This document shows positions 1,242-58,933 of a DNA stretch of 64,000 bases, in pieces. The stretch lies in NCBI GenBank assembly GCA_016208105.1, contig JACQYS010000031.1, forward strand, positions 1 to 64,000, in the 5' to 3' direction. A model generated the notes under the pieces. It was not told the origin of the DNA. It saw only the letters and a program-made list of their open reading frames with translations, and did not search any database. The DNA is from Desulfovibrio sp. (GTDB lineage Bacteria; Desulfobacterota; Desulfovibrionia; Desulfovibrionales; Desulfovibrionaceae). Made by a program: the position numbers and the translations under genes. Positions within the stretch are counted from its first letter, which is position 1, and the number at the start of each line of letters is the position of its first letter.

Positions 1242-2054
1242 ATGAAGAAAATCGCCAGTTTCTTTTTTGCATTACTGCTTACGGCCAGCCTGGCCCAGGC
1301 AGACACCAACATCCGAGTGGACGGTTCCACCACCGTGCTGCCCGCCATGCAGAAGATAGTAGAGGCCTACATGAAGGCCAACCCCGGGGTGAACATCACC
1401 GTTTCAGGTGGCGGATCAGGCAACGGCATCAAGGCCATCATCGACGGCACTACTGATGTTGCCATGTCTTCGCGCGAGATGAAGCCAAAGGAAATGGATG
1501 CAGCCAAGGAAAAGGGCCGCGTGGTGAAGCCTGTGGAGATCGCCCTGGACGCCCTGGCGCCCATCGTGAATCCGGCCAACCCCGTGAAGGGGCTTACCGC
1601 CGAACAGCTTCAGGGCATTTTCGCCGGCAAGGTCAAGAACTGGAAGGAAGTCGGCGGAGACGACAGGGAAATCGTGGTCATATCCCGCGATACCTCCTCC
1701 GGCACCTACGAAGCCTGGCAGGAACTGATCATGAAGGACCAGAAGGTGACCCCGGCCGCCCTTCTTCAGGCTTCTTCCGGCGCGGTGCTGCAGGTGGTGG
1801 GAAAGAACAAGTACGCAATCGCCTACGACGGTTACGCCTACGTGAACAACACCGTGAAGGCGCTTCCGGTCAACGGTGTTGCTGGCAGCGAGAAGACCGT
1901 GGCTGACAAGAGCTACCCGGTCTCGCGTGGCCTGTTCATCATTGTCCCCGAGAAGGCCACCCCCGAGGTGCAGAAGTTCGTGGACTACATCCTGGATCCG
2001 GCCAAGGGCCAGAAGATGATCGGCGAAGTCGGCTATTTCCCGGTAAAGAAATAG
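1242..2054 (+). CDS. pstS: Phosphate ABC transporter periplasmic binding protein PstS
   Basis: 270 aa. Residues 1-20 form a signal peptide (short basic start, hydrophobic core, cleavage after AQA), so the protein is exported to the periplasm. The phosphate-binding fold shows in the N-terminal DGSTTV segment, in SGGGSGNGIKAI and in the SRDTSSGTYE segment, where Ser, Asp, Arg and Thr contact the anion. Length matches the short PstS class common in deltaproteobacteria. GGAGG lies 10 nt before the ATG. It is the first gene of pstSCA and sits behind a Pho-box-like array, so induction by phosphate limitation is expected. Confidence 0.93.
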   Translation: MKKIASFFFALLLTASLAQADTNIRVDGSTTVLPAMQKIVEAYMKANPGVNITVSGGGSGNGIKAIIDGTTDVAMSSREMKPKEMDAAKEKGRVVKPVEIALDALAPIVNPANPVKGLTAEQLQGIFAGKVKNWKEVGGDDREIVVISRDTSSGTYEAWQELIMKDQKVTPAALLQASSGAVLQVVGKNKYAIAYDGYAYVNNTVKALPVNGVAGSEKTVADKSYPVSRGLFIIVPEKATPEVQKFVDYILDPAKGQKMIGEVGYFPVKK

Positions 2055-2068
2055 CATCCAACAATCCG

Positions 2069-2092
2069 CCGGGTCCCCCACGGGGGGCCCGG
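2069..2092 (+). terminator. Strong intercistronic hairpin between pstS and pstC
   Basis: CCGGGTCCCCC (2069-2079) pairs with GGGGGGCCCGG (2082-2092), with one T-G wobble. The bases at the tip cannot all pair, so the working stem is about 9 bp. Only ATTT follows. Similar hairpins after binding-protein genes limit read-through or protect the upstream mRNA, giving excess binding protein over permease. It ends 4 nt before the pstC SD and could also affect pstC translation. Confidence 0.6.
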
Positions 2093-2106
2093 ATTTGGAG
2101 CCTGCA

Positions 2107-3000
2107 GTGGCCATCAGCCGAAAGCTCAAAGACGATCTGATCCGTTATTTCTTTATGATCACCGCCATGGTGTCCATTGTGTCCCTGGCGCTCATCATGA
2201 TCTACCTCTTCCTGGAAGGGCTTCCTCTTTTCAAGCATGTGGGTGTGATGGAGTTTCTCTTCGGGAACCTGTGGTATCCGACTGCCGAGCCTGCGGAATT
2301 TGGGATTTTCCCCCTCATCATGGCTTCTATCGCGGTGACGGCGCTTTCGTCGTCCATAGCCATCCCCCTGGGTGTCATGACCGCGGTTTACCTTGCGGAA
2401 ATAGCCGGGGCCAAGACACGCGGCATACTCAAACCACTGGTGGAACTTCTGGCAGCGTTGCCGTCGGTGGTTATCGGCTTCTTCGGCATGGTGGTGGTGG
2501 CCCCATTTCTCCAGGACACATTCGACTTGGCCACCGGCCTTAACCTGTTCAACGCCAGTCTGATGCTGGCCTTCATGTCCGTGCCCACCATCTGTTCGGT
2601 TTCCGAAGACGCCATCTACGCTGTTCCGCGCGAACTCAAGGAGGCATCCCTGGCCTTGGGAGCCACCCACTGGGAGACCATAAGAAGGGTTATTCTGCCC
2701 GCATCGCTTTCAGGCGTGTCCACCGCCGTCATTCTCGGCATGTCCAGGGCCATTGGGGAAACAATGGTGGTGCTCATGGTGGCGGGTGGAGCGGCAATTC
2801 TCCCCAAGTCGATTTTCTCAGCGATCCGGCCCATGCCGTCCTCCATCGCAGCCGAAATGGCCGAAGCGCCTTTTCGCTCGGACCACTACCACGCGCTTTT
2901 TGCCATAGGCATCGTGCTGTTTCTGTTCACCCTGGTTTTCAACATCATCGCCCAGCACATTTCCGAAAAACACAAACAGGTTGGAGCCGCCACTCTGTAG
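2107..3000 (+). CDS. pstC: Phosphate ABC transporter permease PstC
   Basis: 297 aa inner-membrane permease with about six transmembrane segments. The binding-protein-dependent permease loop appears as EASLALGATHWETIRRV, the EAA-type motif that docks on the ATPase. I chose the GTG at 2107 because GGAG (2097-2100) lies 6 nt upstream; the TTG at 2095 is in frame but would place the SD inside the gene. It is the second gene of pstSCA and is followed after 13 nt by pstA. It partners PstA and an ATPase PstB that is not in this window. Confidence 0.92.
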   Translation: MAISRKLKDDLIRYFFMITAMVSIVSLALIMIYLFLEGLPLFKHVGVMEFLFGNLWYPTAEPAEFGIFPLIMASIAVTALSSSIAIPLGVMTAVYLAEIAGAKTRGILKPLVELLAALPSVVIGFFGMVVVAPFLQDTFDLATGLNLFNASLMLAFMSVPTICSVSEDAIYAVPRELKEASLALGATHWETIRRVILPASLSGVSTAVILGMSRAIGETMVVLMVAGGAAILPKSIFSAIRPMPSSIAAEMAEAPFRSDHYHALFAIGIVLFLFTLVFNIIAQHISEKHKQVGAATL

Positions 3001-3013
3001 AGGCCAGAGCGAT

Positions 3014-3883
3014 ATGCGTAGAAACGACAAGCTTATCAAACGGCGCAGGGGCGTCCAGAGCCTGATGTGGGGAGTGTTCAAGGGCGCGGCCCTGGTGAAT
3101 GCGGCTGCACTGGGCATTATCTGCGTTTTTCTCTTCTACAACGGCCTGCCTGCCATATCCTGGGAGTTCCTCTCCCAGCCGCCTCGCAACTCCATGACAG
3201 CTGGTGGCATTCTGCCCTGCATAATCGGCACGATAATCCTGTCCATGGGGTCCATGCTGGTGGCCTTCCCCCTGGGTGTGTGCGCGGCCATATATTTGAA
3301 CGAGTACGCCAAGCCAGGCAAAATGGTCCGTATGATCCGTCTGGGAATCGCCAATCTGGCAGGAGTACCTTCAGTGGTGTTCGGCCTTTTTGGGCTGGCC
3401 TTTTTCGTCACCTTTTTCGGGCTCGGGGTGAGCATTCTTTCCGGCGTGCTGACCCTCACCATCCTGGTTCTTCCCGTGATCATCGGTACCAGCGAGGAAG
3501 CCCTCAAGTCCGTGCCCAACACGTACCGGGAAGCATCGCTGGGACTGGGCGCAACCAAATGGCAGACCATCCGCTTCGTGGTGCTCCCGGCGGCCATCCC
3601 AGGCATGCTCACCGGGGCCATCCTCGGTCTGTCGCGCGCTGCCGGAGAGACCGCGGCCATCATGTTCACCGCCGCTGTGTTCTTCGCACCCAAGCTGCCC
3701 ACTTCGGTGTTCTCGGACGTGATGGCGCTGCCCTACCACATTTACGTGCTCGCCACCGCGGGAACCGACATAGACAAGACCCGCCCCCTGCAATACGGCA
3801 CCGCCCTGGTGCTCATAGCCCTTGTTCTGGGTATGAATCTGCTCGCCATTGTGCTTCGGGCCAGGCTGCAGAGAAAGGGCTGA
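3014..3883 (+). CDS. pstA: Phosphate ABC transporter permease PstA
   Basis: 289 aa with a basic cytoplasmic N-terminus (RRNDKLIKRRR) and about six transmembrane segments. The EAA loop is EASLGLGATKWQTIRFV, closely matching PstC and typical of the PstC/PstA pair. The ATG at 3014 is preferred over an upstream TTG that would overlap pstC; the SD before it is weak (AGAG), suggesting translational coupling. The usual next genes pstB and phoU are missing; a minus-strand chemoreceptor follows instead. Confidence 0.9.
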   Translation: MRRNDKLIKRRRGVQSLMWGVFKGAALVNAAALGIICVFLFYNGLPAISWEFLSQPPRNSMTAGGILPCIIGTIILSMGSMLVAFPLGVCAAIYLNEYAKPGKMVRMIRLGIANLAGVPSVVFGLFGLAFFVTFFGLGVSILSGVLTLTILVLPVIIGTSEEALKSVPNTYREASLGLGATKWQTIRFVVLPAAIPGMLTGAILGLSRAAGETAAIMFTAAVFFAPKLPTSVFSDVMALPYHIYVLATAGTDIDKTRPLQYGTALVLIALVLGMNLLAIVLRARLQRKG

Positions 3884-6805: not shown

Positions 6806-7077
6806 GACGGTACTCCTTGTGAGACGGGCGCGAAGATACCCAGACATGGTTGGGGAATGATATACAGCGGGTGACAATTCGGTGTCGGCCGTGGTAGATT
6901 GGAGGCGAACGCAACCAGGAATAATGTGGAGGTGCAGCCAGGAGCAAACAAGTCGAGACAGGCGCGGAGGCGCGGCGTAACGGGCGTCTCTTCCCGGTCA
7001 TGGATTCGTCACACGAAAGGGATAGTTTTCGTATTACCGCGGCGGCGCGGCGAGAACGTCCCTGAAAGGAAGGCCAA

Positions 7078-8286
7078 ATGACCCTGGAAGGTTCGAGCAA
7101 GAGAAAGAATTACGTCATCGACACCAACGTCCTCATCGAAAACCCGAACTCGGTACTGGCGCTTAGAAACGGCAACGAAAACAACATATTCATCCCCTAC
7201 CACGTGCTCATGGAGTTGGAGACGCTCAAGAACACGCCAAAGCTCCGCCACATAGTCTCCAAGGTCATCTCGAGTCTCATCGAGAACCGCGAACACATCA
7301 CCTTCATCCGCAACGGCAACTCCGACTCGCCTTTCACCAACATCGTCGACAACTACATCCTGCGCGAAATCGAGACCGCCCACGACATCCAGGATCCCAT
7401 ACTGGTCACCAACGACAGGCTTTTGCAGCTCCAGGCTTCTCTTCGCAACATCAAGAGCGAGGAACTGCGCGACTCCAAGCCGTTCGAGTCCGAATCGCAG
7501 CTCTACACCGGGTTCGTGGAGGCGGCGGAGGACGCCCCGCCCAACAGTTTCCTGTGGCGCGACGGCAAGCCGGTCATCCTGAACCACGAGGGTGAGAGGG
7601 CGATCAATTATGTCAACGACATTTGGAATTTGAAACCAAGAACCGTCTATCAGAACCTGGCTCTCGAGCTGATCACAGCCGAGCATGTTGACCTGGTGTC
7701 CATCCAGAGCGAGGCAGGGTTCGGCAAGACCTACCTGGCCCTGGCGGCGGCCCTGTACATGGTGCTGGAGCGAAAGCTCTACGAGAAGATTTTCGTGGTG
7801 AAGCCAACCATCGAGATCGGGGCGAAGATGGGGTTCTTGCCGGGGGACGTGGCCGAAAAGATGGAACCCTACATGAAGTACATCTTCGACCTGCTCCTGA
7901 AACTCCACCGTCAGCGCCCGGCCAACAAGCTTTTTTTAAACCCCAACGACGAGACCCTGCGCTTCAACGCCAAGAAGTTCGAGATTTTGCCACTGGCCTT
8001 CGTGCGCGGCATGAACATCGAAAACGCCTTCGTGATCATAGACGAGGCCCAGAACCTCTCTCGCACCGAAGTTCGGGCCCTTCTCACCCGCATGGGCGAA
8101 GGAGTGAAATGCGTGTGTCTGGGGGATACCTCCCAGGTGGATAATCCCTACCTGAACGAGGCCAACAACGGACTCAACTGGATCGTGCGCAAATTCAGGG
8201 GATTCAACAACTACGGGTACATTGTGCTGAAGGGCGACCGGTCCCGGGGACCGATTACAGACATGGTGCTCAAGAGCAAATTGTAG
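7078..8286 (+). CDS. PIN domain-PhoH family ATPase (PhoH2-like)
   Basis: 402 aa. Residues 10-130 form a PIN nuclease-like domain: YVIDTNVLI supplies the first metal-binding Asp, and the later acidic residues in DPILVTNDRLL fit the family. Residues 185-402 are a PhoH P-loop ATPase with SEAGFGKTYLA as Walker A and FVIIDEAQN as Walker B, followed by GDTSQVDNP. PIN-PhoH proteins are RNA-directed ATPase/RNases in the systems studied. GGAAGG precedes the ATG. The first Walker A residue is Ser rather than the usual Gly. PhoH proteins were named for phosphate-starvation control in E. coli; no Pho-box-like repeat is visible before this gene. Confidence 0.9.
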   Translation: MTLEGSSKRKNYVIDTNVLIENPNSVLALRNGNENNIFIPYHVLMELETLKNTPKLRHIVSKVISSLIENREHITFIRNGNSDSPFTNIVDNYILREIETAHDIQDPILVTNDRLLQLQASLRNIKSEELRDSKPFESESQLYTGFVEAAEDAPPNSFLWRDGKPVILNHEGERAINYVNDIWNLKPRTVYQNLALELITAEHVDLVSIQSEAGFGKTYLALAAALYMVLERKLYEKIFVVKPTIEIGAKMGFLPGDVAEKMEPYMKYIFDLLLKLHRQRPANKLFLNPNDETLRFNAKKFEILPLAFVRGMNIENAFVIIDEAQNLSRTEVRALLTRMGEGVKCVCLGDTSQVDNPYLNEANNGLNWIVRKFRGFNNYGYIVLKGDRSRGPITDMVLKSKL

Positions 8287-9887: not shown

Positions 9888-9905
9888 CGGTAACAAGTTC
9901 GTAAT
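9888..9905 (+). promoter_or_regulatory. Pho-box-like direct repeat upstream of the GAK operon
   Basis: CGGTAAC (9888-9894) and TCGTAAT (9899-9905) are 7-mers spaced 11 bp. The pattern GTAACA-N5-GTAAT is identical, with the same spacing, to that at 1147-1162 before pstS. It lies 83 bp before the first GAK gene and about 95 bp from the divergent GGDEF gene. A PhoB-type site is inferred from this single comparison. Confidence 0.4.
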
Positions 9906-9987
9906 GGACGGTGGGTATTGAAGCCTTTGCCTCCCATGCGGAAGGTGGTATGAATAAGACTGTTTTTATACTGGGGAGGACAATCCC

Positions 9988-10536
9988 ATGAGCATGAGCA
10001 ACAAGCATAAATGTGAAAGGATGCTCGATAAAAGCGCGGTCGCTGGATGGCTGCGAGACCTGGCAACGGATTTTGATCGTGGCGAACTGGCCGGGGAAGC
10101 CGGAGCTGTCAGTCTGGAAGGATTCAAGGGGCTGAAGCTGTCCATCAAGCCTGCGTTCGACGGCAAGATCCTGGTGAAACTTTCGGTGAAGTTCCCGAAG
10201 GCAACGACTGGAGCCCAAACCGAGGATGATGACGACGAATCGGACGCCCTTCCAAAATATTCGTCGCTCAAAAAACACATGAAGCAAACCTTCAAGGCCA
10301 TCGGCGCGGCTCTGGCCGCGGGACAATTGCCCCCGGCTCTTGAGGCCCAGAGTTTCATCGCCGACTCCAAACTCATGGTCAGCTACCCTGGGAAGGGTGA
10401 TGAGTTCTACAAAGCCTATTTGGAAAAAACCAACGCCTTCGAGGCGGCCTTGGCAATCTCCGATCTGGAGACTTTAAAGGCCGTTCACAGCGAGCTGGCG
10501 CAACTCAAACGGGATTGCCATTCCCGTTACGCGTAG
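9988..10536 (+). CDS. GAK system XXXCH protein
   Basis: 182 aa, soluble and acidic. The N-terminal 65 residues align visibly with the amphi-Trp protein encoded at 11761: both show L..L...F..GE, then DG, KL and KF at matching spacing. A central acidic run (EDDDDES) leads to a helical C-terminal domain ending LKRDCHSRYA. The near-terminal Cys-His is the mark of the family named XXXCH. GGGGAGGA lies 7 nt before the ATG. It is the first gene of a seven-gene operon and 7 nt separate it from the next gene. The function is not known; it could be the substrate or carrier for the operon's enzymes. Confidence 0.75.
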   Translation: MSMSNKHKCERMLDKSAVAGWLRDLATDFDRGELAGEAGAVSLEGFKGLKLSIKPAFDGKILVKLSVKFPKATTGAQTEDDDDESDALPKYSSLKKHMKQTFKAIGAALAAGQLPPALEAQSFIADSKLMVSYPGKGDEFYKAYLEKTNAFEAALAISDLETLKAVHSELAQLKRDCHSRYA

Positions 10537-10543
10537 GTCCCCT

Positions 10544-11719
10544 ATGGCAGGCACGAAAATAGAGTTGGTAAGGGCCGGGCTGAACGTTCCCTCGGAGGTT
10601 GATCTGGCCCGTATACCACGGGAAGTAACAGACTGGGACATGGAGACGTTTCTGGGCCTAACTTGCGACGGGGTGACTCCCGAACAGGCCCGGGCAATCC
10701 GCACCCCGCAGGTCTGTTTTCCCCGTCAGGAATACGTGTTGGGCGTGCACTGGCATCCTGAACAGGTGCCCATGGACATGATCCGGGACCGCATAGCGGC
10801 CATGTACCCCGCAAGCCAGGACGAACTCATCATCCCCACCCAGCACAACCAGATACTCACCTGGGGCGAGTATGCCGGAGTGGAGGTGGACTGCTATTCC
10901 CACGGCTTCAACCGCAAAGTGCAGCTGCTTATCCACATGCGCGCCGACCGGCTGGGTCGTGCCGGAGTGCTGATGAACATGCTGAAGCACACCTTCAAGT
11001 ACCGCTCGTCGCAGCTTTTCGAGTACCTTGATGCCTTGTGCGCTCCGGAATGGGCCGAACGGCGCCAGCAGGCGGCTGCCAAGGCCGGTTCTGACGAAGA
11101 TGTGGTAGAGTTCACGGCCATCCACGCCCGAAAGCTGAAGAGCCTCATCCTGATGAATGAGTCACGCACGCCTGAAGACGCAATCAAAAACAAACTCGTG
11201 CGTAACTATCTTGATTGTTTGCGCGAATCCTACGATGCCCGTTTCGTCAACAAGGCCCAGGTTTTTGCCAAGGCGGTGAAGGAAGTCGTGAAGGAAGGGT
11301 TCGCCCTGGATTACTTCTACCGCGCCTCGGAGGTTGTGGAAGAAGCTCGCTCCATTGGGGCGGGCATCGTGATCCCCCACCCGGAGCAGTTCTGGCCGAT
11401 CCTTTTGCGTAATTACGATGTGGACGGCATCGAGGTCTGGAATCCCCAGTCGCAGCAGTACACGGAGTTCTTGATCAACGTGGTTCTGGATCAGAACCGG
11501 CGAGGCTACCACAAGGAAAGGCCCATGCTCATCTTCATGGGCGATGACTGTCATATGAGCGAAAAGCTCAAAAAGCCGGCCGAGCAGGATAAAGACAAGG
11601 CCGCCCGCGAGGTGGGGTTGCAGCCCGCCTGGGACGACCTGGTCATCGCCAAGGGGCTCATCATGTCCGGAGTGAGTCGCAAGACCGTGATGGATCAATA
11701 CCGGGACCGGCTTGAGTAG
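10544..11719 (+). CDS. PHP-domain metal-dependent hydrolase-like protein of the GAK operon
   Basis: 391 aa, cytosolic. Metal-ligand motifs of the PHP fold appear in order: GVHWHPEQ (HxH, about residue 67), GVEVDCYSHG, IVIPHPEQFW (about residue 278), VEVWNP, and GDDCHMS (DxH, about residue 331). PHP enzymes are often phosphoesterases such as histidinol-phosphatase or polymerase-linked exonucleases. This protein is longer than histidinol-phosphatases and has an inserted helical block in the middle. It follows the XXXCH gene by 7 nt with a weak SD, so coupling is likely. The substrate is unknown. Confidence 0.75.
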   Translation: MAGTKIELVRAGLNVPSEVDLARIPREVTDWDMETFLGLTCDGVTPEQARAIRTPQVCFPRQEYVLGVHWHPEQVPMDMIRDRIAAMYPASQDELIIPTQHNQILTWGEYAGVEVDCYSHGFNRKVQLLIHMRADRLGRAGVLMNMLKHTFKYRSSQLFEYLDALCAPEWAERRQQAAAKAGSDEDVVEFTAIHARKLKSLILMNESRTPEDAIKNKLVRNYLDCLRESYDARFVNKAQVFAKAVKEVVKEGFALDYFYRASEVVEEARSIGAGIVIPHPEQFWPILLRNYDVDGIEVWNPQSQQYTEFLINVVLDQNRRGYHKERPMLIFMGDDCHMSEKLKKPAEQDKDKAAREVGLQPAWDDLVIAKGLIMSGVSRKTVMDQYRDRLE

Positions 11720-11760
11720 GAAGTTTCCTTCCAGGAATCGGGCTTATTGAGGGGTGGAGT

Positions 11761-12111
11761 GTGTCCCCGGGAACAAAAGACCTAAGGACGTATCTGATGG
11801 ACAAGGCTGACAAGCGCGACAAACCGGCCAAGGAAGGCAAGTTCTCCTACGAGTCGGTGCAGGACGTGCCGACCCTGGTGGAGTATCTCAAGGCACTGAC
11901 CGCTGGTTTCGAAAAAGGGGAAATCCACTTCGCCCGAAAGGATTTGGATATGGTGCTGGCTCCCAAAGGCCTTATCGGCTTCGCCCTGGAGGCCAAGGCC
12001 AAGGATGGGCGCATGAAATTGGCCATGAAGTTCGCCTGGCGCGAAAGCGTCGACGAGGCCATCAAGGAAGACGACATGCTGGTGATATCCTCTTCCGGAG
12101 GCGGGGATTAG
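11761..12111 (+). CDS. Amphi-Trp domain protein of the GAK operon
   Basis: 116 aa from the GTG at 11761, with AGGGG 6 nt upstream. An ATG at 11797 with AAGGA 8 nt upstream is a real alternative and would give 104 aa. The core from KFSYESVQD to MKFAWRESV matches the amphi-Trp domain, ending in the amphipathic strand with the Trp that names it. It ends in SSSGGGD. The N-terminus is very Lys/Asp rich. It is a likely paralogue of the XXXCH protein's N-terminal domain. The next start lies 3 nt after its stop. No enzymatic residues are seen; a binding or substrate role is inferred. Confidence 0.7.
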   Translation: MSPGTKDLRTYLMDKADKRDKPAKEGKFSYESVQDVPTLVEYLKALTAGFEKGEIHFARKDLDMVLAPKGLIGFALEAKAKDGRMKLAMKFAWRESVDEAIKEDDMLVISSSGGGD

Positions 12112-12114
12112 GCG

Positions 12115-13761
12115 ATGCGTCTTCTCGAAGGAGTCGAAGAGAATTTTCGCTTCATGGTCCTGGAAGTGACCAAGCAGGTGGAGAATACCCTCAAGGTGCT
12201 CGAGAAACCCGACCCGGCCATGGTGGCCAAGATTGAGAGCCGGGACGACTATATAGACAACTTGAAAAGCGTGATCGAGAATAAGTGTTTCTCGCGCATC
12301 CACACCGGTTTCGGCGGCGACAAGCGGGCCATAGACCTGGCCCGGGCGGTGAACATCATCACCTCCAACCTTGAGCGTCTGGCTGACCATGCCGTGAACA
12401 TCGTGATGCAGTCGCAGTACCTGCGCGATCCGCATTTCATCAAACGCTACGACTACAAGGCGTTTTTCACCGAGATCATAAAGGCCCTGCGCCTGGTGGT
12501 GAAGGCGCTTTATAACCAGGACGTCACCCTGGCCTTCAAGATCTGCCGGGCGGAAGTGACTCTGGACGCCCTGTTCAAGGCCAACTTCGACATCATAATG
12601 GCCGATCTGCGCAAGGGGGAATCACCGGAGAACTGCATCACATCACACAATATCTTCCGCTACCTTGAGCGCATGGGCGACACCATCCTGAACATCGGCG
12701 AAGCCATCATCTTCGCGGCCGTGGGTGAGAAGTTCAAGATCCACCAATACGGGGCTCTCAAGGAAACTCTGACCGAGTTGGGACAAGAAGTCCCCATATC
12801 CGACGGCGAATTCCATTCCATCTGGGGGACCCGTTCAGGGTGCCGTATCGGGAAAGTTGAAAAAGAGCGCCAAGGGGGGAGATCCAGCGGCGTGCTCTTC
12901 AAGGAGGGCAACGCGGACAAGCTGCGCCGGGAGGCAGAGAATATCCGCCGCTGGGAGGCCATCATGCCGGGTCTGCCGCCGAGGGTGCAGGCCTTTCATG
13001 TGGACGCGGATTCGGCCAGCATGCTCATGGAATACCTGGGCGGGTGCACGTACCAGGAGGTGGTGCTCACCGGGGCGCCCGAAATCGCGGCCAACGCCAC
13101 GTTCATCCTGGAACAGATTGCCCGGCAACTCTGGACCCAGACCCGCGAAAACAAGCCGGTCAGGGCTGAGTACATAAGCCAGCTTCGCCAGCGCCTCGAC
13201 GACGTGTTCCGCATGCACCCGTCGTTTCGCACTCAGGAGATGGAGCTTGCCGGGGAGCGCGTCCCCGCATTCGAAGCGTTGGTGGAGGAGATCGCCAGTT
13301 TGGAGGCCCAGTTCGAAGCCCCCTTTTCGGTGTTCATCCACGGCGACTTCAACATCAACAACATCGTGTACAACCACGAAGAACAACGAATCCACTACAT
13401 CGATCTGCATCGCTCCAAAGACAGCGATTTTGTTCAGGACGTGTCCGTGTTCCTCATTTCCAACTTCCGGTTGCCCGTGTTGGACAGCCTGTTACGCACC
13501 CGGCTGGACAGGGTCATGCGGGAGTTTCTTGCATTCGCCCGAGAATTCGCCGCAGAAACCGGTGACACAACCTTTGAAGTCCGCCTGACCCTGGGGCTGA
13601 TCCGTTCTTTCATCACCTCCAGCCGGTTCGAGTTCAACCTCCGATTCGCCCGGGAGATGTTCATGCGCGGCGTATACCTTATGCGAAAGCTCATGAACCA
13701 CAAGCAAGGTGGAAAACCCTGGCAGGACTTCATCCTGCCCGAGGATGTGCTCATCTATTGA
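12115..13761 (+). CDS. PhoU domain fused to an APH/choline-kinase-type phosphotransferase
   Basis: 548 aa fusion. Residues 1 to about 220 are PhoU-like helical bundles (RAVNIITSNLERLADHAVNI and FRYLERMGDTILNIGEA are PhoU repeats). Residues about 255-548 are a kinase of the aminoglycoside phosphotransferase fold: the ATP-binding Lys region is GVLFKEGNADK, the catalytic loop is HGDFNINNIV (about residue 409), and the metal-binding Asp is in YIDLHRS. PhoU normally gates PstB and PhoR signalling. The kinase half could phosphorylate a sugar, lipid or amino-alcohol. It sits within the GAK operon, 16 nt before the ATP-grasp gene. Substrate and signal are unknown. Confidence 0.8.
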   Translation: MRLLEGVEENFRFMVLEVTKQVENTLKVLEKPDPAMVAKIESRDDYIDNLKSVIENKCFSRIHTGFGGDKRAIDLARAVNIITSNLERLADHAVNIVMQSQYLRDPHFIKRYDYKAFFTEIIKALRLVVKALYNQDVTLAFKICRAEVTLDALFKANFDIIMADLRKGESPENCITSHNIFRYLERMGDTILNIGEAIIFAAVGEKFKIHQYGALKETLTELGQEVPISDGEFHSIWGTRSGCRIGKVEKERQGGRSSGVLFKEGNADKLRREAENIRRWEAIMPGLPPRVQAFHVDADSASMLMEYLGGCTYQEVVLTGAPEIAANATFILEQIARQLWTQTRENKPVRAEYISQLRQRLDDVFRMHPSFRTQEMELAGERVPAFEALVEEIASLEAQFEAPFSVFIHGDFNINNIVYNHEEQRIHYIDLHRSKDSDFVQDVSVFLISNFRLPVLDSLLRTRLDRVMREFLAFAREFAAETGDTTFEVRLTLGLIRSFITSSRFEFNLRFAREMFMRGVYLMRKLMNHKQGGKPWQDFILPEDVLIY

Positions 13762-13777
13762 GCCCCAGGAGCCAGGC

Positions 13778-14653
13778 ATGAAAAAGATTGGTGTGGTCGG
13801 AATCTCGGATGGCTGGTCTTCCGAGATACTGGCGGACGCGTGCAAAAAACTGACGGGTTTTCGTCTGCTCATCGACATGGACAAGGCGGTTCTCGACCTC
13901 GACCGTGGAACCGTTTTTTTTGCCGGGCAGGACCTTCTTGAACTCGATGCGCTCATAATAAAAAAGATCGCTCCGCAGTATTCTCCGGGCGTCTTGGACC
14001 GTCTTGAGATGCTCCGCTTCCTGGAACTCAAAGGCCTGCCCATTTTCTCCCGGCCTTCCTCCATCATACGGCTCATTAACCGGCTGAGCTGCACCGTGAC
14101 CTTGCACGCGGGCGGATTGCCCATGCCCGCCACGGTCATTACCGAGGACGCCGAGGAGGCCTTGGCCGCAGTTGAACGGTTCGGGCGGACCGTGTTCAAA
14201 CCCTTGTACTCCACCAAGGCCAGGGGAATGGAAGTAATCGCGGCTGGGGAGGGGGCCTGGGAGCGCATTAATGCCTTTCAGGCTGCGGGAAACAACGTGA
14301 TGTATCTGCAGAAGATGCTGCCGCCCCTGGAAAAGGATTTGGGAGTCACCTTCCTTGGCGGAGAATACCTGGCCACCTATGCCCGCAAGTCTGGCGGCTC
14401 AAGCTGGAACACCACTACCAATGCGGGCGGCAAGTATGTTCCCTGCGATCCATCGCCAGAGATCATAGCCTTGGCAAAAAAGGCCCAGGCCCTTTTCGAT
14501 ATGGCCTTTACCTGCGTGGACGTGGCTGAGACGAGCCAGGGGCCAATTATCTTTGAAGTGTCTGCGTTTGGAGGCTTCCGTGGCCTGTTGGACGCCTGCG
14601 GCATTGACGCGGCGGATGCTTACGCCCGCCATGTTCTGGAGAGCATTTCATGA
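13778..14653 (+). CDS. GAK system ATP-grasp enzyme
   Basis: 291 aa, RimK-like ATP-grasp. The N-terminal preATP-grasp portion precedes an ATP-binding Lys segment (TVFKPLYSTKARGMEV). The C-terminal metal-binding segment IIFEVSAFGGFRGL takes the place of the usual E-x-N element; Asn is replaced by Ser, which may weaken one Mg contact. ATP-grasp enzymes form amide or ester bonds through acyl-phosphates. The ATG at 13778 follows CAGGAG by 7 nt. Its stop overlaps the next ATG (ATGA at 14650), indicating coupling to the HprK-like kinase. The substrate is unknown. Confidence 0.8.
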   Translation: MKKIGVVGISDGWSSEILADACKKLTGFRLLIDMDKAVLDLDRGTVFFAGQDLLELDALIIKKIAPQYSPGVLDRLEMLRFLELKGLPIFSRPSSIIRLINRLSCTVTLHAGGLPMPATVITEDAEEALAAVERFGRTVFKPLYSTKARGMEVIAAGEGAWERINAFQAAGNNVMYLQKMLPPLEKDLGVTFLGGEYLATYARKSGGSSWNTTTNAGGKYVPCDPSPEIIALAKKAQALFDMAFTCVDVAETSQGPIIFEVSAFGGFRGLLDACGIDAADAYARHVLESIS

Positions 14654-15723
14654 GCCTGCTGACAGTACGGGAGCTTGCAGCCCCCTTTGTGGCCCAATAT
14701 CCGTGCACCCACCTTCTCAAGCTTGGCTTCGGCAGCTACGGCGTGGATGTTCTTTCCAATGATGAACGGCTCGTTGCCTGGCTCGCCGACTACTTCAGGG
14801 ATTTCCTTCGAAGCTCAGGGACCGCCCATTGCGAAGTGATGGCCATCGAATGCGCGCCGCAGGATTTACCCCTGACCTATTCGGCGAAGGAGCCGGAGCC
14901 TGGCAAGAGCAAGGTCAAGGAAGAGTGGGCGGAACTCGCTCATGGCCGCGTGGTGCGCAAGCGGCTCACCGGGATGCTCTTCATCTTCGGGGGTGGCCAG
15001 AATGTGGCTCTTGGCCCTTGCCTGGAGAACCCCAATCAGGTTGTCAACTTCATCAACAACCGGTTCATCGAACACAAGTTGAACCAGGGGTGCCTGCTGG
15101 GCCATGCGGCCGGGGTGTCATTCAGGGGGGAAGGGATGGCCCTTGCCGGATTCTCGGGCATGGGTAAGTCCACCCTAGCCCTGCATATGATGAATCTGGG
15201 GCTTAATTTCGTCTCCAACGACAGGGTGATGATCGGCCGTGACAACGGGTGCCTCACCATGTACGGCGTTGCCAAAATGCCCAGGGTCAATCCCGGAACC
15301 GTGCTCAACAATCCGAGTCTGGCCTCGGTGATGCCCAAACAAGAGCGAAGAGCTTTCAGGAATATGCCCCCCGAGGAGTTGTGGAGCCTGGAACACAAGT
15401 ATGACGCATTCATTGACGAGTGCTTCGGGCCAGGCCGCTTCGAATTGGAAGTGCGTATGAAGGGGTTGGCCATACTCAACTGGAAGCGCGAGGGGGGCGA
15501 ACCACGAGTTGCTCCGGTAGACCTCGCCTCGCGCCGGGACTTGCTTCCGGCTTTCATGAAAAGCGCAGGTCTTTTTTTCGACGCGGGGCACGACATGCCC
15601 CTCCCGGATTTTTCCGAAGAGGCCTACCTTGATGAACTCAAGGGATGCTCGGTGTTCGAGGTAACCGGGGGGACTGATTTCCTGTTGGCGGCCTCCATGC
15701 TCACGAAACTTCTGAAAGGATGA
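14650..15723 (+). CDS. GAK system HprK-related kinase B
   Basis: 357 aa. The C-terminal half carries a P-loop GFSGMGKSTLA (about residues 167-177), followed by NFVSNDRVMI, as in HPr kinase/phosphorylase, where the Asp region aids catalysis. HprK homologues phosphorylate Ser in a protein or peptide; the operon supplies no HPr-like protein, so the target could be one of the two small amphi-Trp-type proteins (inference). The N-terminal 140 residues have no assignment. The gene overlaps the ATP-grasp gene by 4 nt and ends 3 nt before the CofD-like start. Confidence 0.78.
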   Translation: MSLLTVRELAAPFVAQYPCTHLLKLGFGSYGVDVLSNDERLVAWLADYFRDFLRSSGTAHCEVMAIECAPQDLPLTYSAKEPEPGKSKVKEEWAELAHGRVVRKRLTGMLFIFGGGQNVALGPCLENPNQVVNFINNRFIEHKLNQGCLLGHAAGVSFRGEGMALAGFSGMGKSTLALHMMNLGLNFVSNDRVMIGRDNGCLTMYGVAKMPRVNPGTVLNNPSLASVMPKQERRAFRNMPPEELWSLEHKYDAFIDECFGPGRFELEVRMKGLAILNWKREGGEPRVAPVDLASRRDLLPAFMKSAGLFFDAGHDMPLPDFSEEAYLDELKGCSVFEVTGGTDFLLAASMLTKLLKG

Positions 15724-15726
15724 CAG

Positions 15727-16920
15727 GTGCCCACGGTTACCATTTCCCACACGGTCTCGCTGCCTGACAAGGTAAAGATCGCCCGGTATCTGAAAACCCC
15801 TGAGCTTGGCCCGAAGGTACTTTTTTTCAGTGGCGGCACTGCCTTGAGGGACCTGTCCCGGGAATTGGTCAACTATACGCACAACTCCGTGCATCTGCTC
15901 ACCCCCTTTGATTCAGGGGGGTCTTCGGCAAAGCTGCGCCAGGCGTTTCACATGCTGGCCGTGGGCGACCTGCGCTATCGGCTCATGGCCCTGGCAGACC
16001 GGTCCCTGCGGGGGAACCACCAGATTTACGACCTTTTCGCGCATCGCCTGCCCAAGGATCTGGAACAGGAAGAACTGAGGACCATTCTCGATGGCATGAT
16101 CAAAGGCCGCGATCCGCTGGTGGCCGCTGTGCCCGATCCCATGCGCAAGATTATCCGCTCCCACCTCAAATTTTTCCGAAAAACCATGAAGGGAACGGAT
16201 TTCGACCTGCGTGGGGCCAGCATAGGCAACCTCATCCTGGCTGGGGGATTCTTCAACTACAACCGCCAGATAGACCCGGTGATCTACATGTTCACCATGC
16301 TGGTGAAGGCCCGAGGTACGGTTAGGCCCATAATAAACAAGGATCTGACCCTGGTGACCGAACTGGCTGACGGGACCCTCTTGGCGGGACAGCACCTGCT
16401 CACGGGAAAAGAAACCAACCCCATTGAGCAGCCGGTAAAGCGCGTCTACTTGTGCGAGGGCCGGGACGACCTGAGCCCGGTGGAGGTCGAGCTGCGCAGA
16501 AAGGTGAAAGAGCTTATCCGCTCGTCGGAACTGATCTGCTATCCCATAGGCAGCTTCTACTCGAGCATTGTGGCGAATCTCCTCCCCAAGGGGGTGGGTG
16601 ACGCCATAGCCAAAGCCCAGTGCCCCAAGGTGTTCGTGCCAAATCCCGTGGGCGACCCGGAACAATACGGACTGTCCTTGAGCCAGAGCGTGCTTCGCCT
16701 GTTGGAATATCTCCACGCCAGTTGCACCAAGCCTCGGCCCACCGAGTCGCTTCTGAACTTCGTGCTTCTGGACAAGGGGATGAATTATCAGGCCCCGCTT
16801 GGAATCGAACAGATCGAATCTCTTGGAATCAAGGTGGTCGAGGCTGAATTGTCGAACCCGGCCAACCCCCCGTTTTTTGACGAGCGGGCGCTTATTGAGC
16901 ACATCCTCTCTTTCGTTTAG
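15727..16920 (+). CDS. GAK system CofD-like transferase
   Basis: 397 aa. Residues about 28-75 show the CofD/YvcK-type nucleotide-binding start: VLFFSGGTALRDLSREL and then TPFDSGGSSAKLRQAF. CofD transfers a phospholactyl-type group from a nucleotide-activated donor to a deazaflavin in F420 synthesis. YvcK-like relatives bind nucleotide-sugars and regulate the cell wall. No other F420 genes are near, so a different acceptor is likely. The start is GTG with GAAAGGA upstream. It is the last gene of the operon, and its stop overlaps the stop of the opposing GGDEF/EAL gene by 4 nt. Confidence 0.8.
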   Translation: MPTVTISHTVSLPDKVKIARYLKTPELGPKVLFFSGGTALRDLSRELVNYTHNSVHLLTPFDSGGSSAKLRQAFHMLAVGDLRYRLMALADRSLRGNHQIYDLFAHRLPKDLEQEELRTILDGMIKGRDPLVAAVPDPMRKIIRSHLKFFRKTMKGTDFDLRGASIGNLILAGGFFNYNRQIDPVIYMFTMLVKARGTVRPIINKDLTLVTELADGTLLAGQHLLTGKETNPIEQPVKRVYLCEGRDDLSPVEVELRRKVKELIRSSELICYPIGSFYSSIVANLLPKGVGDAIAKAQCPKVFVPNPVGDPEQYGLSLSQSVLRLLEYLHASCTKPRPTESLLNFVLLDKGMNYQAPLGIEQIESLGIKVVEAELSNPANPPFFDERALIEHILSFV

Positions 16921-19277
16921 CAGGCGATATCTTCAGGTCTGGGCGGGCATGAGGCCAGGCCAAGCGGCCCCCGCCGGTCACGCACCCAGACGTTTCCGGG
17001 CAGGCTCTTGGCGTATTTTTTCATCTCAGCGGAGCGGTGCGAAATGTCCTCCAGGGTGCAGTGCCCCTGACAGTCCACTATGGCCAGGGATACGGAGACG
17101 AACCCGAACTTCCCTTCTTTCCCGGACCGGTCCTTTCCCACGATGAATCCTGCCAAACGATCCGTTTCGGAGTAGCAACTTAAGACAAGTCTGGAAAAGC
17201 ACCGGGTGACCGCCTTGCAGATGCGCTCGGCCTTGTCCGGAGTGGAGCAGATGACGAAGTCATCCCCGCCAACGTGCCCGAGGAAATCGGCGGGAGAACC
17301 GTGCCGGCGGATAGCCCAGGACAAGATTCGCGAGGCCAGCAGGATGATCTCGTCTCCGGCTTTGAATCCATATGAATCGTTGAACACTTTGAAGTTGTCC
17401 AGATCGGCGTAGATGAAGCTGGTCGGAGAGTTCGAGTCGACACGGCCTTCAATTTCCCGCTCGATGGTCACGTTTCCAGGAAGTCCCGACAGCGGGTTGG
17501 CCCCTTTGGCCATTTCCATCTGCACCTGAGCCAGGGCGTCCAGGATCTTCTGTACCGAGGCCAGCCCGGCCAAGAGACCCTCCCTGGTCACCAGTACGTT
17601 GTCGTAAACCTTATAGCCGTCGCGGGTCATGGCCGCCTGAGCCGCCATTTCCACGGGGGTGTTCCAGTCAACAATAAGGGGCTGGGTGTCCATTATCTTG
17701 GTTACGGGGCGGTTGGTGTACAGGGCCAGGCCGTATTGCGAGGAAAGAACCCTGTCCATTTGATGCCTGGTGACCAACCCCACAGGGCGTCTGCCTGAAA
17801 CCACCGCCACAGAGCTGATCTGGGAGTTGGCGTCGAAATAACGCTTCAGATCGCCCACAGGGGATTGCGCTTGAACCTGCGGGGCCTCTCCGGCATGGGT
17901 GCCGATGGGTGTGGAGCATTTGAGATCGGACGAGAAGCGGCGTTTGTGCCCCTGGAAGAAGAGGGTGGCTTCGGGCGAGAGTGCGGGTTTTGGGGACGCG
18001 GGGCGGGCCAGAAAGTACCCCTGCCCGTAGTGGACTCCCATGGACACCAGAGAGGATAACTCAGTGGCGGTTTCGATCCCTTCCGCCACGATCTTGCATC
18101 CCACCTTGTCTGAAAAAGTAAGGAAGGTCTCGATGAGGGCGCGTTTCACCGGGTTGGCGTCAATGCCTCTGATGAGCGACATGTCCAGCTTGATGAAGTC
18201 AGGGCGTATCTCGGCGATGGACCACAAACCAGAATAGCCGGTCCCCACGTCGTCCACGGCCACCTTGTATCCCTCGCCCCGGTAATGGTCGAGGGTGCGG
18301 TGAAAAAGGGAGAAGTCTTTGGTGGAGTGGCGCTCGGTGATCTCGAGCACCACGTTATGGGGTTCCAGCCCCAGAGATTCCAACAGTTTGAGCGTCTCCC
18401 CCGGGTTGAAGGCCGGGTCCACAAGCGTTCGGGGGTGGACGTTCAAAAAGAGTGTCCTGCCAGATGCCAGCTCACCGAAGCCGTTCAAGGCAGCCGCCCG
18501 GCAGGCGCGCTCCAGCGGAAACACCAAGTCGTGCTCTTCAGCGAAGCTGAAAAGCATGTCCGGGTTTTCAAATGTGCTTTCGATAGGCCCTCTGGCCAAA
18601 GCCTCCCAGGCGAAGATATCTCCTCCTCTCAGATCCACTATGGGCTGGTATACGGCCCTGACACTGGGAGAGTTCAAAACGGTACGGAACTCCTTGAGCA
18701 AAATGGCGCCGGCAGGGTCCAGGGTGCCCCGAATCATCCTGTGGGCGTCGGCCAGAGCGGAGTGAACGGCTTGCTCGGGCTTTTTGCGTAAACCGGCCGG
18801 GAGTTGTGCTGCGCCCATGGCGATCTCGATATCTTGGCCAGTGAGATTGAGCGCTTCGCGCTTGAGCTTGGCCCGCAGGTTCAGGCGCAGAACAGAGCCT
18901 GTACGATGTAGCGTGGTAATGTCGGTGGCATAACCGCCCAAGGCCAACATGAATTTATCGCCTTCGAGCCTGTCCAGTACCACGAGCGGCAAGCCTGAGA
19001 GCCTGTCCTTGATCAGAGCGTCGAGCTCCCTTTCCGCCGCTAGGCTCAGGGCGTCTGCGATCTCAGCCCCATATACCCTGGAGTAGACGTAAAAATCTTG
19101 GATCTCGAACAGCAGTACGCTGACCATGCCTCCGTGTTTGAGCAGAGTCTCCACAGCCTGACGGTGCGGAGCGGTGAGCAGCGAGAGGGAGTCACAGCTG
19201 TGTGGGTAATCCCCTTTGAGGGGAGTGGACAGGGGGATGAACGGCTTGAAGCTCTTGATACTCATGAGCATGGGCAA
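16917..19277 (-). CDS. EAL-CBS-GGDEF c-di-GMP turnover protein
   Basis: 786 aa, cytosolic. Order: a degenerate N-terminal GGDEF-like domain (LEGDKF in place of GGDEF), an EAL domain beginning near EALARGP (about residue 224) with DDVGTGYSGL, KLD and EGIE motifs intact, a CBS pair (about residues 455-590), and a C-terminal GGDEF domain with GGDDF (about residue 670). Both phosphodiesterase and cyclase residues look usable; the CBS pair may sense adenine nucleotides. The start is uncertain because ATGs at 19277, 19271 and 19265 all lack a good SD. It converges with the last GAK gene. Confidence 0.88.
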   Translation of the reverse strand: MPMLMSIKSFKPFIPLSTPLKGDYPHSCDSLSLLTAPHRQAVETLLKHGGMVSVLLFEIQDFYVYSRVYGAEIADALSLAAERELDALIKDRLSGLPLVVLDRLEGDKFMLALGGYATDITTLHRTGSVLRLNLRAKLKREALNLTGQDIEIAMGAAQLPAGLRKKPEQAVHSALADAHRMIRGTLDPAGAILLKEFRTVLNSPSVRAVYQPIVDLRGGDIFAWEALARGPIESTFENPDMLFSFAEEHDLVFPLERACRAAALNGFGELASGRTLFLNVHPRTLVDPAFNPGETLKLLESLGLEPHNVVLEITERHSTKDFSLFHRTLDHYRGEGYKVAVDDVGTGYSGLWSIAEIRPDFIKLDMSLIRGIDANPVKRALIETFLTFSDKVGCKIVAEGIETATELSSLVSMGVHYGQGYFLARPASPKPALSPEATLFFQGHKRRFSSDLKCSTPIGTHAGEAPQVQAQSPVGDLKRYFDANSQISSVAVVSGRRPVGLVTRHQMDRVLSSQYGLALYTNRPVTKIMDTQPLIVDWNTPVEMAAQAAMTRDGYKVYDNVLVTREGLLAGLASVQKILDALAQVQMEMAKGANPLSGLPGNVTIEREIEGRVDSNSPTSFIYADLDNFKVFNDSYGFKAGDEIILLASRILSWAIRRHGSPADFLGHVGGDDFVICSTPDKAERICKAVTRCFSRLVLSCYSETDRLAGFIVGKDRSGKEGKFGFVSVSLAIVDCQGHCTLEDISHRSAEMKKYAKSLPGNVWVRDRRGPLGLASCPPRPEDIAC

Positions 19278-58843: not shown

Positions 58844-58933
58844 GGAGGGATGGCCGAGCGGTTTAAGGCGGTGGTCTTGAAAACCACTGGCGGGGGAACC
58901 CGTCCGGGGGTTCGAATCCCTCTCCCTCCGCCA
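58844..58933 (+). tRNA. tRNA-Ser (anticodon TGA)
   Basis: A 90-nt class II tRNA with encoded CCA. The acceptor stem GGAGGGA pairs with TCCCTCC (58923-58929), the discriminator is G, and CCA follows. The anticodon loop CTTGAAA carries TGA between GTGGT and ACCAC stems. A long variable arm (GCGGGGGAACCCGT) and a T-loop GGTTCGAATCC are present. Confidence 0.97.

Follow-up and report, generated by a model that had tools for sequence, protein, structure and literature searches.

What does a bacterial operon do that has a curated name and for which a literature search found no function? The question is raised by a 64,000-nucleotide stretch of DNA from Desulfovibrio sp. (the window: positions 1 to 64,000 of contig JACQYS010000031.1), in which seven open reading frames (ORFs) follow one another on the + strand between positions 9988 and 16920. 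To judge from its sequence, this GAK operon is a clear member of the named GAK system. What is new here is that it looks like part of the phosphate (PhoB) regulon, with a predicted PhoB promoter. This regulation is well supported by comparison with relatives; from the enzymes we infer a product, a phosphate reserve, to which about even chances can be given. The genes are the following.

9988-10536, + strand: gene 1, XXXCH protein (TIGR04358, 94.4 bits, cut-off 40; model and fold match, PDB profile)
10544-11719, + strand: gene 2, PHP-fold metal-dependent phosphoesterase (model matches 3e0f/3o0f; invariant residues)
11797-12111, + strand: gene 3, amphi-Trp protein (TIGR04354, 58.4 bits, cut-off 31; alignment; alternative upstream start GTG 11761)
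12115-13761, + strand: gene 4, PhoU domain fused to an APH-type kinase (Pfam; HGDxxxxN at residue 409)
13778-14653, + strand: gene 5, ATP-grasp enzyme, RimK/MptN/LysX-like (TIGR04356, 443.4 bits, cut-off 300; PDB matches)
14650-15723, + strand: gene 6, HprK-related kinase B (HPRK) with Walker A (TIGR04355, 511.3 bits, cut-off 200; HprK structures)
15727-16920, + strand: gene 7, CofD/YvcK-like transferase (TIGR04357, 520.9 bits, cut-off 340; structure 2ppv, E 2e-37)

Five of the seven proteins exceed curated NCBIfam cut-offs, which covers all five models TIGR04354-TIGR04358, and three of those models are titled "GAK system". An earlier note on this DNA had proposed a complete same-strand set of seven genes and had linked it to a TIGRFAM 'GAK system'; the ORFs and the model names bear out both. 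No function for these names was found in the literature searched: a full-text search of the open literature did not find the phrase "GAK system" in any paper, and the main text of PMC12389409 mentions neither XXXCH nor GAK. Two small corrections apply to the earlier note, which gave gaps of -4 to 41 nt. Since homologues of gene 3 start near ATG 11797, this is more likely its start than GTG 11761, and the gap ahead of it becomes 77 nt rather than 41; gene 5 starts at 13778.

Relatives share the gene set (L, G and g below denote a locus, genome and genus of the relatives compared). The ATP-grasp model is over its cut-off in 35 of 59 relatives. Among 297 genomes drawn from the phylum, 24 have a CofD-like protein over cut-off; 15 of these also have an ATP-grasp gene over cut-off, and the remaining nine comprise G218, G333 and seven members of genus g42. 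The 71 locus sequences were reduced to 56, window included, by removing three repeats (L072, L078, L031), a second Solidesulfovibrio locus (L027) and 11 sequences without an ATP-grasp match. All seven families occur together in 33 of these 56 ATP-grasp loci, as the earlier note had expected of a conserved set. Taken singly, amphi-Trp and PhoU-APH each occur at 52, HPRK at 51, the CofD-like protein at 49, PHP at 47 and XXXCH at 39. Gene order is identical to that of the window at 12 loci, and 13 more differ only in having a further amphi-Trp gene after the last. Presence was counted from all ORFs, since the gene caller drops overlapping ones (HPRK in L066; HPRK and ATP-grasp in L067). With all ORFs counted, L065, L080 and L104 have no HPRK match. 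In three Rhodobacterales plasmid loci a histidine phosphatase and a metallophosphoesterase replace PHP, and one of the three adds a NUDIX gene; one has no CofD-like gene in the stretch examined.

Several loci are unusual in their arrangement. In L119 (G103) the CofD-like, PhoU-APH and PHP genes are split into fragments, and HPRK and ATP-grasp each read as a single ORF. A single Solidesulfovibrio alcoholivorans contig gives both L029 and L031, GAK loci that share their gene coordinates, face in opposite directions and lie about 45 kb apart. A reduced GAK set (ATP-grasp, HPRK, CofD-like) in L085 (3329-10716) and L087 (4504-12061) encloses a peroxiredoxin-like gene, recognised by eye, and a phosphate acetyltransferase, named by NCBIfam in L085 and by sequence cluster in L087.

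Phosphate control is suggested by a PHO-box-like repeat ahead of gene 1, and similar repeats precede pstS and a phoH-like gene in the window.

9890-9905, + strand: PHO-box-like 11-bp direct repeat GTAAC-N6-GTAAT, 98 bp ahead of gene 1
9916-9921, + strand: -10-like TATTGA, beginning exactly 10 bp past the GAK box
1147-1162, + strand: PHO-box-like repeat ahead of pstS, TAGGGT 10 bp downstream
1242-3883, + strand: pstS-pstC-pstA, companion predicted PhoB target (TIGR02136, TIGR02138 and TIGR00974 above cut-off)
6997-7012, + strand: PHO-box-like repeat ahead of the phoH-like gene, TAGTTT 10 bp downstream
7078-8286, + strand: PIN-PhoH protein, companion predicted PhoB target (PF02562, 159.8 bits)

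Both sequence marks of a PhoB target, the 11-bp repeat upstream and a -10 element about 10 bp past it, are present at GAK. The pattern GTMAY-N6-GTMAY has three matches in the window as against 0.64 in shuffles, and 3 of 100 shuffles also reach three. The number of boxes is weak evidence by itself; their positions are telling, ahead of pstS, PIN-PhoH and GAK and all on the coding strand. All three have TA exactly 10 bp on. A stricter form, GTAAYN6GTAAY, has six matches in the whole genome of 4.18 Mb, two of them the sites at pstS and GAK, and a reversed control pattern has 11. No pstB or phoU was seen adjoining the pstS-pstC-pstA genes of the window; among the matches listed, stand-alone phoU genes sit on other contigs.

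The motif was first read off the GAK promoter, and it was hence tested on other genes. Upstream regions of pstS were usable at 23 of 30 loci (seven had none). A scan of these 23 for 5-mer direct repeats of period 11 ranked GTAAC and GTCAC, along with the same words shifted by one base, among the highest, and these repeats are also enriched ahead of GAK, against a scan background that is mostly coding DNA. GTMAY-N6-GTMAY was found ahead of 15 of the 56 GAK loci, 14 of the 23 pstS genes and 11 of 229 control genes from the same loci (Fisher p=6.5e-6 for GAK against control, an optimistic value since the loci are related). Half-site spacings other than the 11-bp period occur at 0-2 of the 56. The 15 box-bearing GAK loci span nine genera, with five in the window's genus (the window among them); at L062 the box falls inside the called start. 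TA at +10 follows 9 of 16 GAK boxes and 10 of 15 pstS boxes, compared with two or fewer at other offsets. For Desulfovibrio vulgaris, DAP-chip work found the PhoB box, (c/t)GT(n)AC in direct repeat, ahead of 14 of 30 targets, with the Pst genes, phoU and others among those named in the available part of the report (PMC3333781). The GAK-type box resembles that repeat, which according to the same text has a 6-bp repeat and a 4-bp spacer where the period here is 11 bp. On these comparisons the GAK operon very probably belongs to the PhoB regulon, with the box a predicted site at which PhoB itself would bind.

The neighbourhood of the operon also points to phosphate. Of 33 genomes, 12 have a pstS, phoU or PiT gene no more than 20 kb from the ATP-grasp gene, against an expectation of 1.46. 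By genus the figure is 8 of 21, and five of the 12 genomes belong to the window's genus; within 10 kb the count is 6 of 33 genomes (0.75 expected; P about 4e-6 with one counted per genus). G027 and G052, two of the 35 GAK-positive genomes, were left out of this count and of that for polyphosphate kinases below. Five second-stretch pstS rows and long PhoU-containing ORFs were also left out and PhoU was taken from the matches listed, which makes the expected values slightly low. In L070, L081, L104 and L111 a same-strand pair, phoU and a pstB-like gene, precedes the GAK genes. Upstream of this pair stand phoR and phoB in L081 and L111 and phoB in L070, and pstS lies further upstream in L104. In L081 these names are from NCBIfam, with phoU and pstB above cut-off and phoR and phoB in the expected families below it; in L070, L104 and L111 they rest on sequence clusters or gene starts. 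Exact boxes precede phoB in L081/L156, L070 and L111; another lies between phoR and pstB in L081, and another upstream of the pstS match in G036 (L157).

Magnesium transport genes and further phosphate genes recur in these surroundings. L115 has a box ahead of an MgtA-type ATPase, then ATP-grasp and HPRK. MgtA-type genes come after HPRK in L029 (named by NCBIfam) and L110 (by cluster). L084 is a pst-phoU-CofD-like-mgtE run; no exact-pattern box lies ahead of it, and the stretches of L084, L021, L022 and L023 contain matches at other places. L064 is flanked by PiT genes, and in L104 (7693-9761, G036) a PiT gene and a DUF47-like gene on the other strand lie between CofD-like and ATP-grasp, the usual place of HPRK. 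PhoH-like genes occur within 8.3 kb at 14 of 56 loci, a count made without a control. In five loci fetched from genus g42 (L098, L099, L100, L117, L118), a solitary CofD-like gene is followed by PiT and DUF47 genes. That run also has yidC-, mnmE- and pseudouridine synthase-like genes, as seen by eye. Both the promoter and this neighbourhood point to a physiological role, and both had been missed by the earlier note.

Responsiveness to phosphate would also be expected of a signalling module that makes no storage compound. The PhoU-kinase and the HprK-like kinase would phosphorylate the small proteins, and the CofD/YvcK-like protein would sense a nucleotide sugar; in this way uptake and carbon flow would be adjusted to phosphate. 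A PhoU domain within a kinase, small non-enzymatic partners in one to three copies and a CofD-like member closest to YvcK-type structures are all in keeping with this, as is the regulator-like placing of the CofD-like gene, alone with DUF47-PiT at the five g42 loci and behind the pst-phoU run in L084. A ligase, phosphoesterases and, on one plasmid, a NUDIX protein seem more than a regulator needs, and we consider such a module possible and somewhat unlikely.

PhoB targets can include storage genes such as ppk. Neither PPK1 nor PPK2 has a match in any of 33 GAK-positive Desulfovibrionales, as compared with PPK1 in 4 and PPK2 in 2 of 24 GAK-negative ones; the window's own genome likewise has no match to either. 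In the phylum draw PPK1 was over cut-off in 30 of 297 genomes and in 0 of the 17 known to be GAK-positive, among which G187 has a PPK1 fragment of 27.9 bits, far under cut-off. With both draws together, none of 48 GAK-positive genomes has PPK1 over cut-off. In genus g42, with only the CofD-like gene, 6 of 7 genomes have PPK1. Pooling family and order gives 0 of 35 against 10 of 31 (p=2e-4), a figure for two draws joined after the fact and for relatives that are not independent. The PPK enzymes share the proposed Pho-linked role of a phosphate reserve, but the GAK enzymes are unrelated to them and belong to neither family.

The reading we favour, at roughly equal odds of being right or wrong, is that GAK, as part of the PhoB regulon, makes and breaks down a polyphosphorylated organic compound, which would stand in for inorganic polyphosphate as a reserve of phosphate. 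The operon, its enzyme classes, the PHO-box promoter, the phosphate neighbourhood and the lack of a PPK over cut-off in the GAK genomes searched are supported by comparison at the level of sequence; binding by PhoB itself, storage as the role, the sequence of reactions and the identity of the compound are proposed. PhoB would bind the box at 9890 and switch the operon on. Phosphate and Mg2+ would be supplied by Pst or PiT and by MgtA or MgtE, which are GAK neighbours in some relatives. The PhoU-APH and HprK-related kinases would phosphorylate an acceptor, and the CofD-like enzyme would make a phosphodiester or diphosphate link from a nucleotide-activated sugar; by CofD chemistry, a nucleotide sugar and a phosphate acceptor might give a sugar 1-diphosphate. 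The ATP-grasp enzyme would then add a ligated group. Dismantling of the product would fall to the PHP phosphoesterase, or to metallophosphoesterase and histidine phosphatase on the three Rhodobacterales plasmids (with NUDIX on one), and the small amphi-Trp and XXXCH proteins may bind or organise it. A set of two kinases, one CofD-type transferase, one ligase and one phosphoesterase suits the assembly and breakdown of a phosphorylated organic compound, and these classes agree with the chemistry named in the earlier note (phosphoryl transfer, ligation, phosphoester hydrolysis).

The kinases and the transferase are assigned by conserved motifs and folds. The N-terminal half of gene 4 matches Pfam PhoU with 87.2 bits (gathering 23.5) and its C-terminal half EcKL with 38.9 (gathering 22) and APH with 28.8 (gathering 23.2); HGDxxxxN and a downstream Asp are kept in 52 of 52 homologues. 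In gene 6, GxxGxGKST (Walker A) and NDR are invariant across aligned homologues. It shares Walker A with HPr kinase/phosphorylase, yet scores 29.4 bits against that model, TIGR00679, under the cut-off of 240. The CofD/YvcK fold of gene 7 is found by Pfam and by PDB profile, where the YvcK-type UPF0052 structure 2ppv is matched; the score for the YvcK model TIGR01826 is 106.2 bits, under its cut-off of 196.

Gene 2 is labelled PHP because a fold match and invariant metal-type residues are found, without a sequence-profile match. A Pfam search gave no match above cut-off, NCBIfam one chance-level row (15.8 bits, cut-off 580) and the PDB profile search one row at E 0.15. Its AlphaFold model (pLDDT 89.6) matches the PHP phosphoesterases 3e0f/3o0f in Foldseek with probability 1.00 and E 2e-4, at TM-scores of only 0.38-0.50, and H69/H71, H101, H131, H279 and D335/H337 are invariant in 40 sequences. 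Fold and metal-type His/Asp residues together place gene 2 in the PHP phosphoesterase superfamily.

Gene 5 belongs to the same ATP-grasp branch as the MptN, RimK and LysX ligases, yet is under their cut-offs. Its PDB profile matches the amino-acid ligases RimK and LysX at E about 1e-23, its best characterised family is MptN with 143.5 bits, and the RimK family model gives 96.1 bits (cut-off 143.4). E-V-S is invariant in 41 GAK sequences, where three aligned LysX-type chains show E-V-N. These relatives suggest that GAK may instead make a phosphate-sparing cofactor or envelope component, by CofD-type phosphodiester formation and then MptN/CofF-type amino-acid ligation, as in the side chains of F420 or tetrahydromethanopterin. 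CofD has the F420 phosphotransferase fold, and D. alaskensis G20 is described as remodelling its lipids under phosphate limitation (PMC5193443, available part). The ATP-grasp enzyme is, however, far under the MptN cut-off of 350 and the CofD-like protein under that of YvcK. PhoU, HprK and PHP partners, moreover, are not known as F420 enzymes, which leaves such a product improbable.

Another likeness is to the inositol pyrophosphate enzymes, in which PPIP5K joins ATP-grasp and histidine phosphatase, and DIPP is a NUDIX protein. The three Rhodobacterales GAK loci likewise pair ATP-grasp with histidine phosphatase, one of them with NUDIX as well, but the GAK ATP-grasp profile does not find PPIP5K or ITPK. 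A role as a PPIP5K/ITPK-type kinase was considered and dropped, the profile finding ligases and not those kinases.

The two small proteins could be substrates rather than partners. The earlier note had named a small protein or a metabolite as the thing modified, and kinases and ligase might indeed decorate the XXXCH or the amphi-Trp protein: the operon encodes both, enzymes related to RimK and LysX work at the C-termini of proteins, and the end of the XXXCH protein is conserved among homologues. Nothing found points there, however. The C-terminus of the amphi-Trp protein (gene 3) is not conserved in the homologue alignment, and XXXCH is missing from 17 of 56 loci; protein modification is unlikely. 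Gene 1 is predicted to consist of an amphi-Trp-like beta-alpha-beta-beta N domain and a four-helix bundle. The bundle resembles cytochrome c' by PDB profile (E 1.8e-4) and also in fold, at probability 1.00 and with a best E of 3.4e-3, no match reaching 0.001. All 35 aligned homologues keep the Cys-His of the heme motif, and the first heme Cys is absent. The bundle appears to be a degenerate, cytoplasmic relative of the cytochrome c' type; no signal peptide was seen by eye, which makes heme attachment doubtful. Two other ideas on the small proteins were dropped: amphi-Trp as a LysW-like carrier, for want of a conserved C-terminus, and both as polyanion binders by net charge, the median pI being 5.8-5.9.

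Several observations weigh against the phosphate reserve or against control by PhoB. Of the 56 GAK loci, 41 have no exact box within the scanned 350 bp (four of them are behind phoB or pst genes), and none lies ahead of the operon in the three Rhodobacterales plasmids. A third half-site (gap 17) is present at 9 of 23 pstS genes and rare at GAK (2 of 56). GAK is not among the D. vulgaris PhoB targets named in the available part of PMC3333781, which would count only if that species carries the operon. Of the 24 GAK-negative relatives, 20 likewise have no PPK1, and its absence is therefore not specific to GAK. HPRK is missing from 5 of 56 loci and so is not always needed, and the 17 loci without XXXCH count here as well. 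The weakest step of the mechanism is the ATP-grasp enzyme, whose relatives are amino-acid ligases and whose PDB profile search found no PPIP5K or ITPK kinase. With ligases as relatives and E-V-S for E-V-N, the mechanism has to account for a ligated group or for altered chemistry. Finally, according to the available part of PMC5193443, D. alaskensis G20 has phosphorus granules in rich phosphate and loses them under phosphate limitation. A starvation-induced operon for storage is in tension with this loss, should the strain carry GAK.

What might the stored compound be? The granule compound of D. gigas is reportedly glucose pentakis(diphosphate), an identification attributed to Hensgens and colleagues (1996) that our literature search did not find. 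Genome G020 was taken as D. gigas, with L081 as its locus; phoB-phoR-pstB-phoU-GAK lie on one strand, with the boxes before phoB and between phoR and pstB described above. Six of its GAK proteins match their models or the PhoU family and the PHP protein matches a profile built in this analysis. Part of the locus is masked, and the gene run was not read unbroken. G020 has no PPK1 or PPK2 match. Large single phosphorus granules are described for D. gigas in the available part of PMC5134017, citing Jones and Chambers 1975. GAK is a tentative candidate for the maker of the D. gigas compound, which would be the product of the proposed pathway in that species. GAK could then be the first set of genes to be linked with a phosphate store independent of PPK, in the form of an organic pyrophosphate built on a sugar. 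In D. gigas this would be the alpha-glucose 1,2,3,4,6-pentakis(diphosphate) reported for its electron-dense granules. The PhoU-APH, HprK-like, CofD-like and ATP-grasp enzymes would make it, and Mg2+ and the small amphi-Trp and XXXCH proteins would be packed with it; we regard this as a doubtful proposal.

Elsewhere in the window ARAGORN reports two tRNA-Ser genes, 18312-18382 and 58844-58933. The first, enclosed by an opposite-strand gene for an EAL/GGDEF protein, may be spurious.

With a predicted promoter, a phosphate and magnesium neighbourhood and no PPK over cut-off in the GAK genomes searched, GAK passes from a curated name without a role in the literature searched to a testable phosphate system. 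If the storage reading is true, it would explain phosphorus granules in sulfate reducers that have no PPK, and it may supply the missing genes for an organic pyrophosphate.

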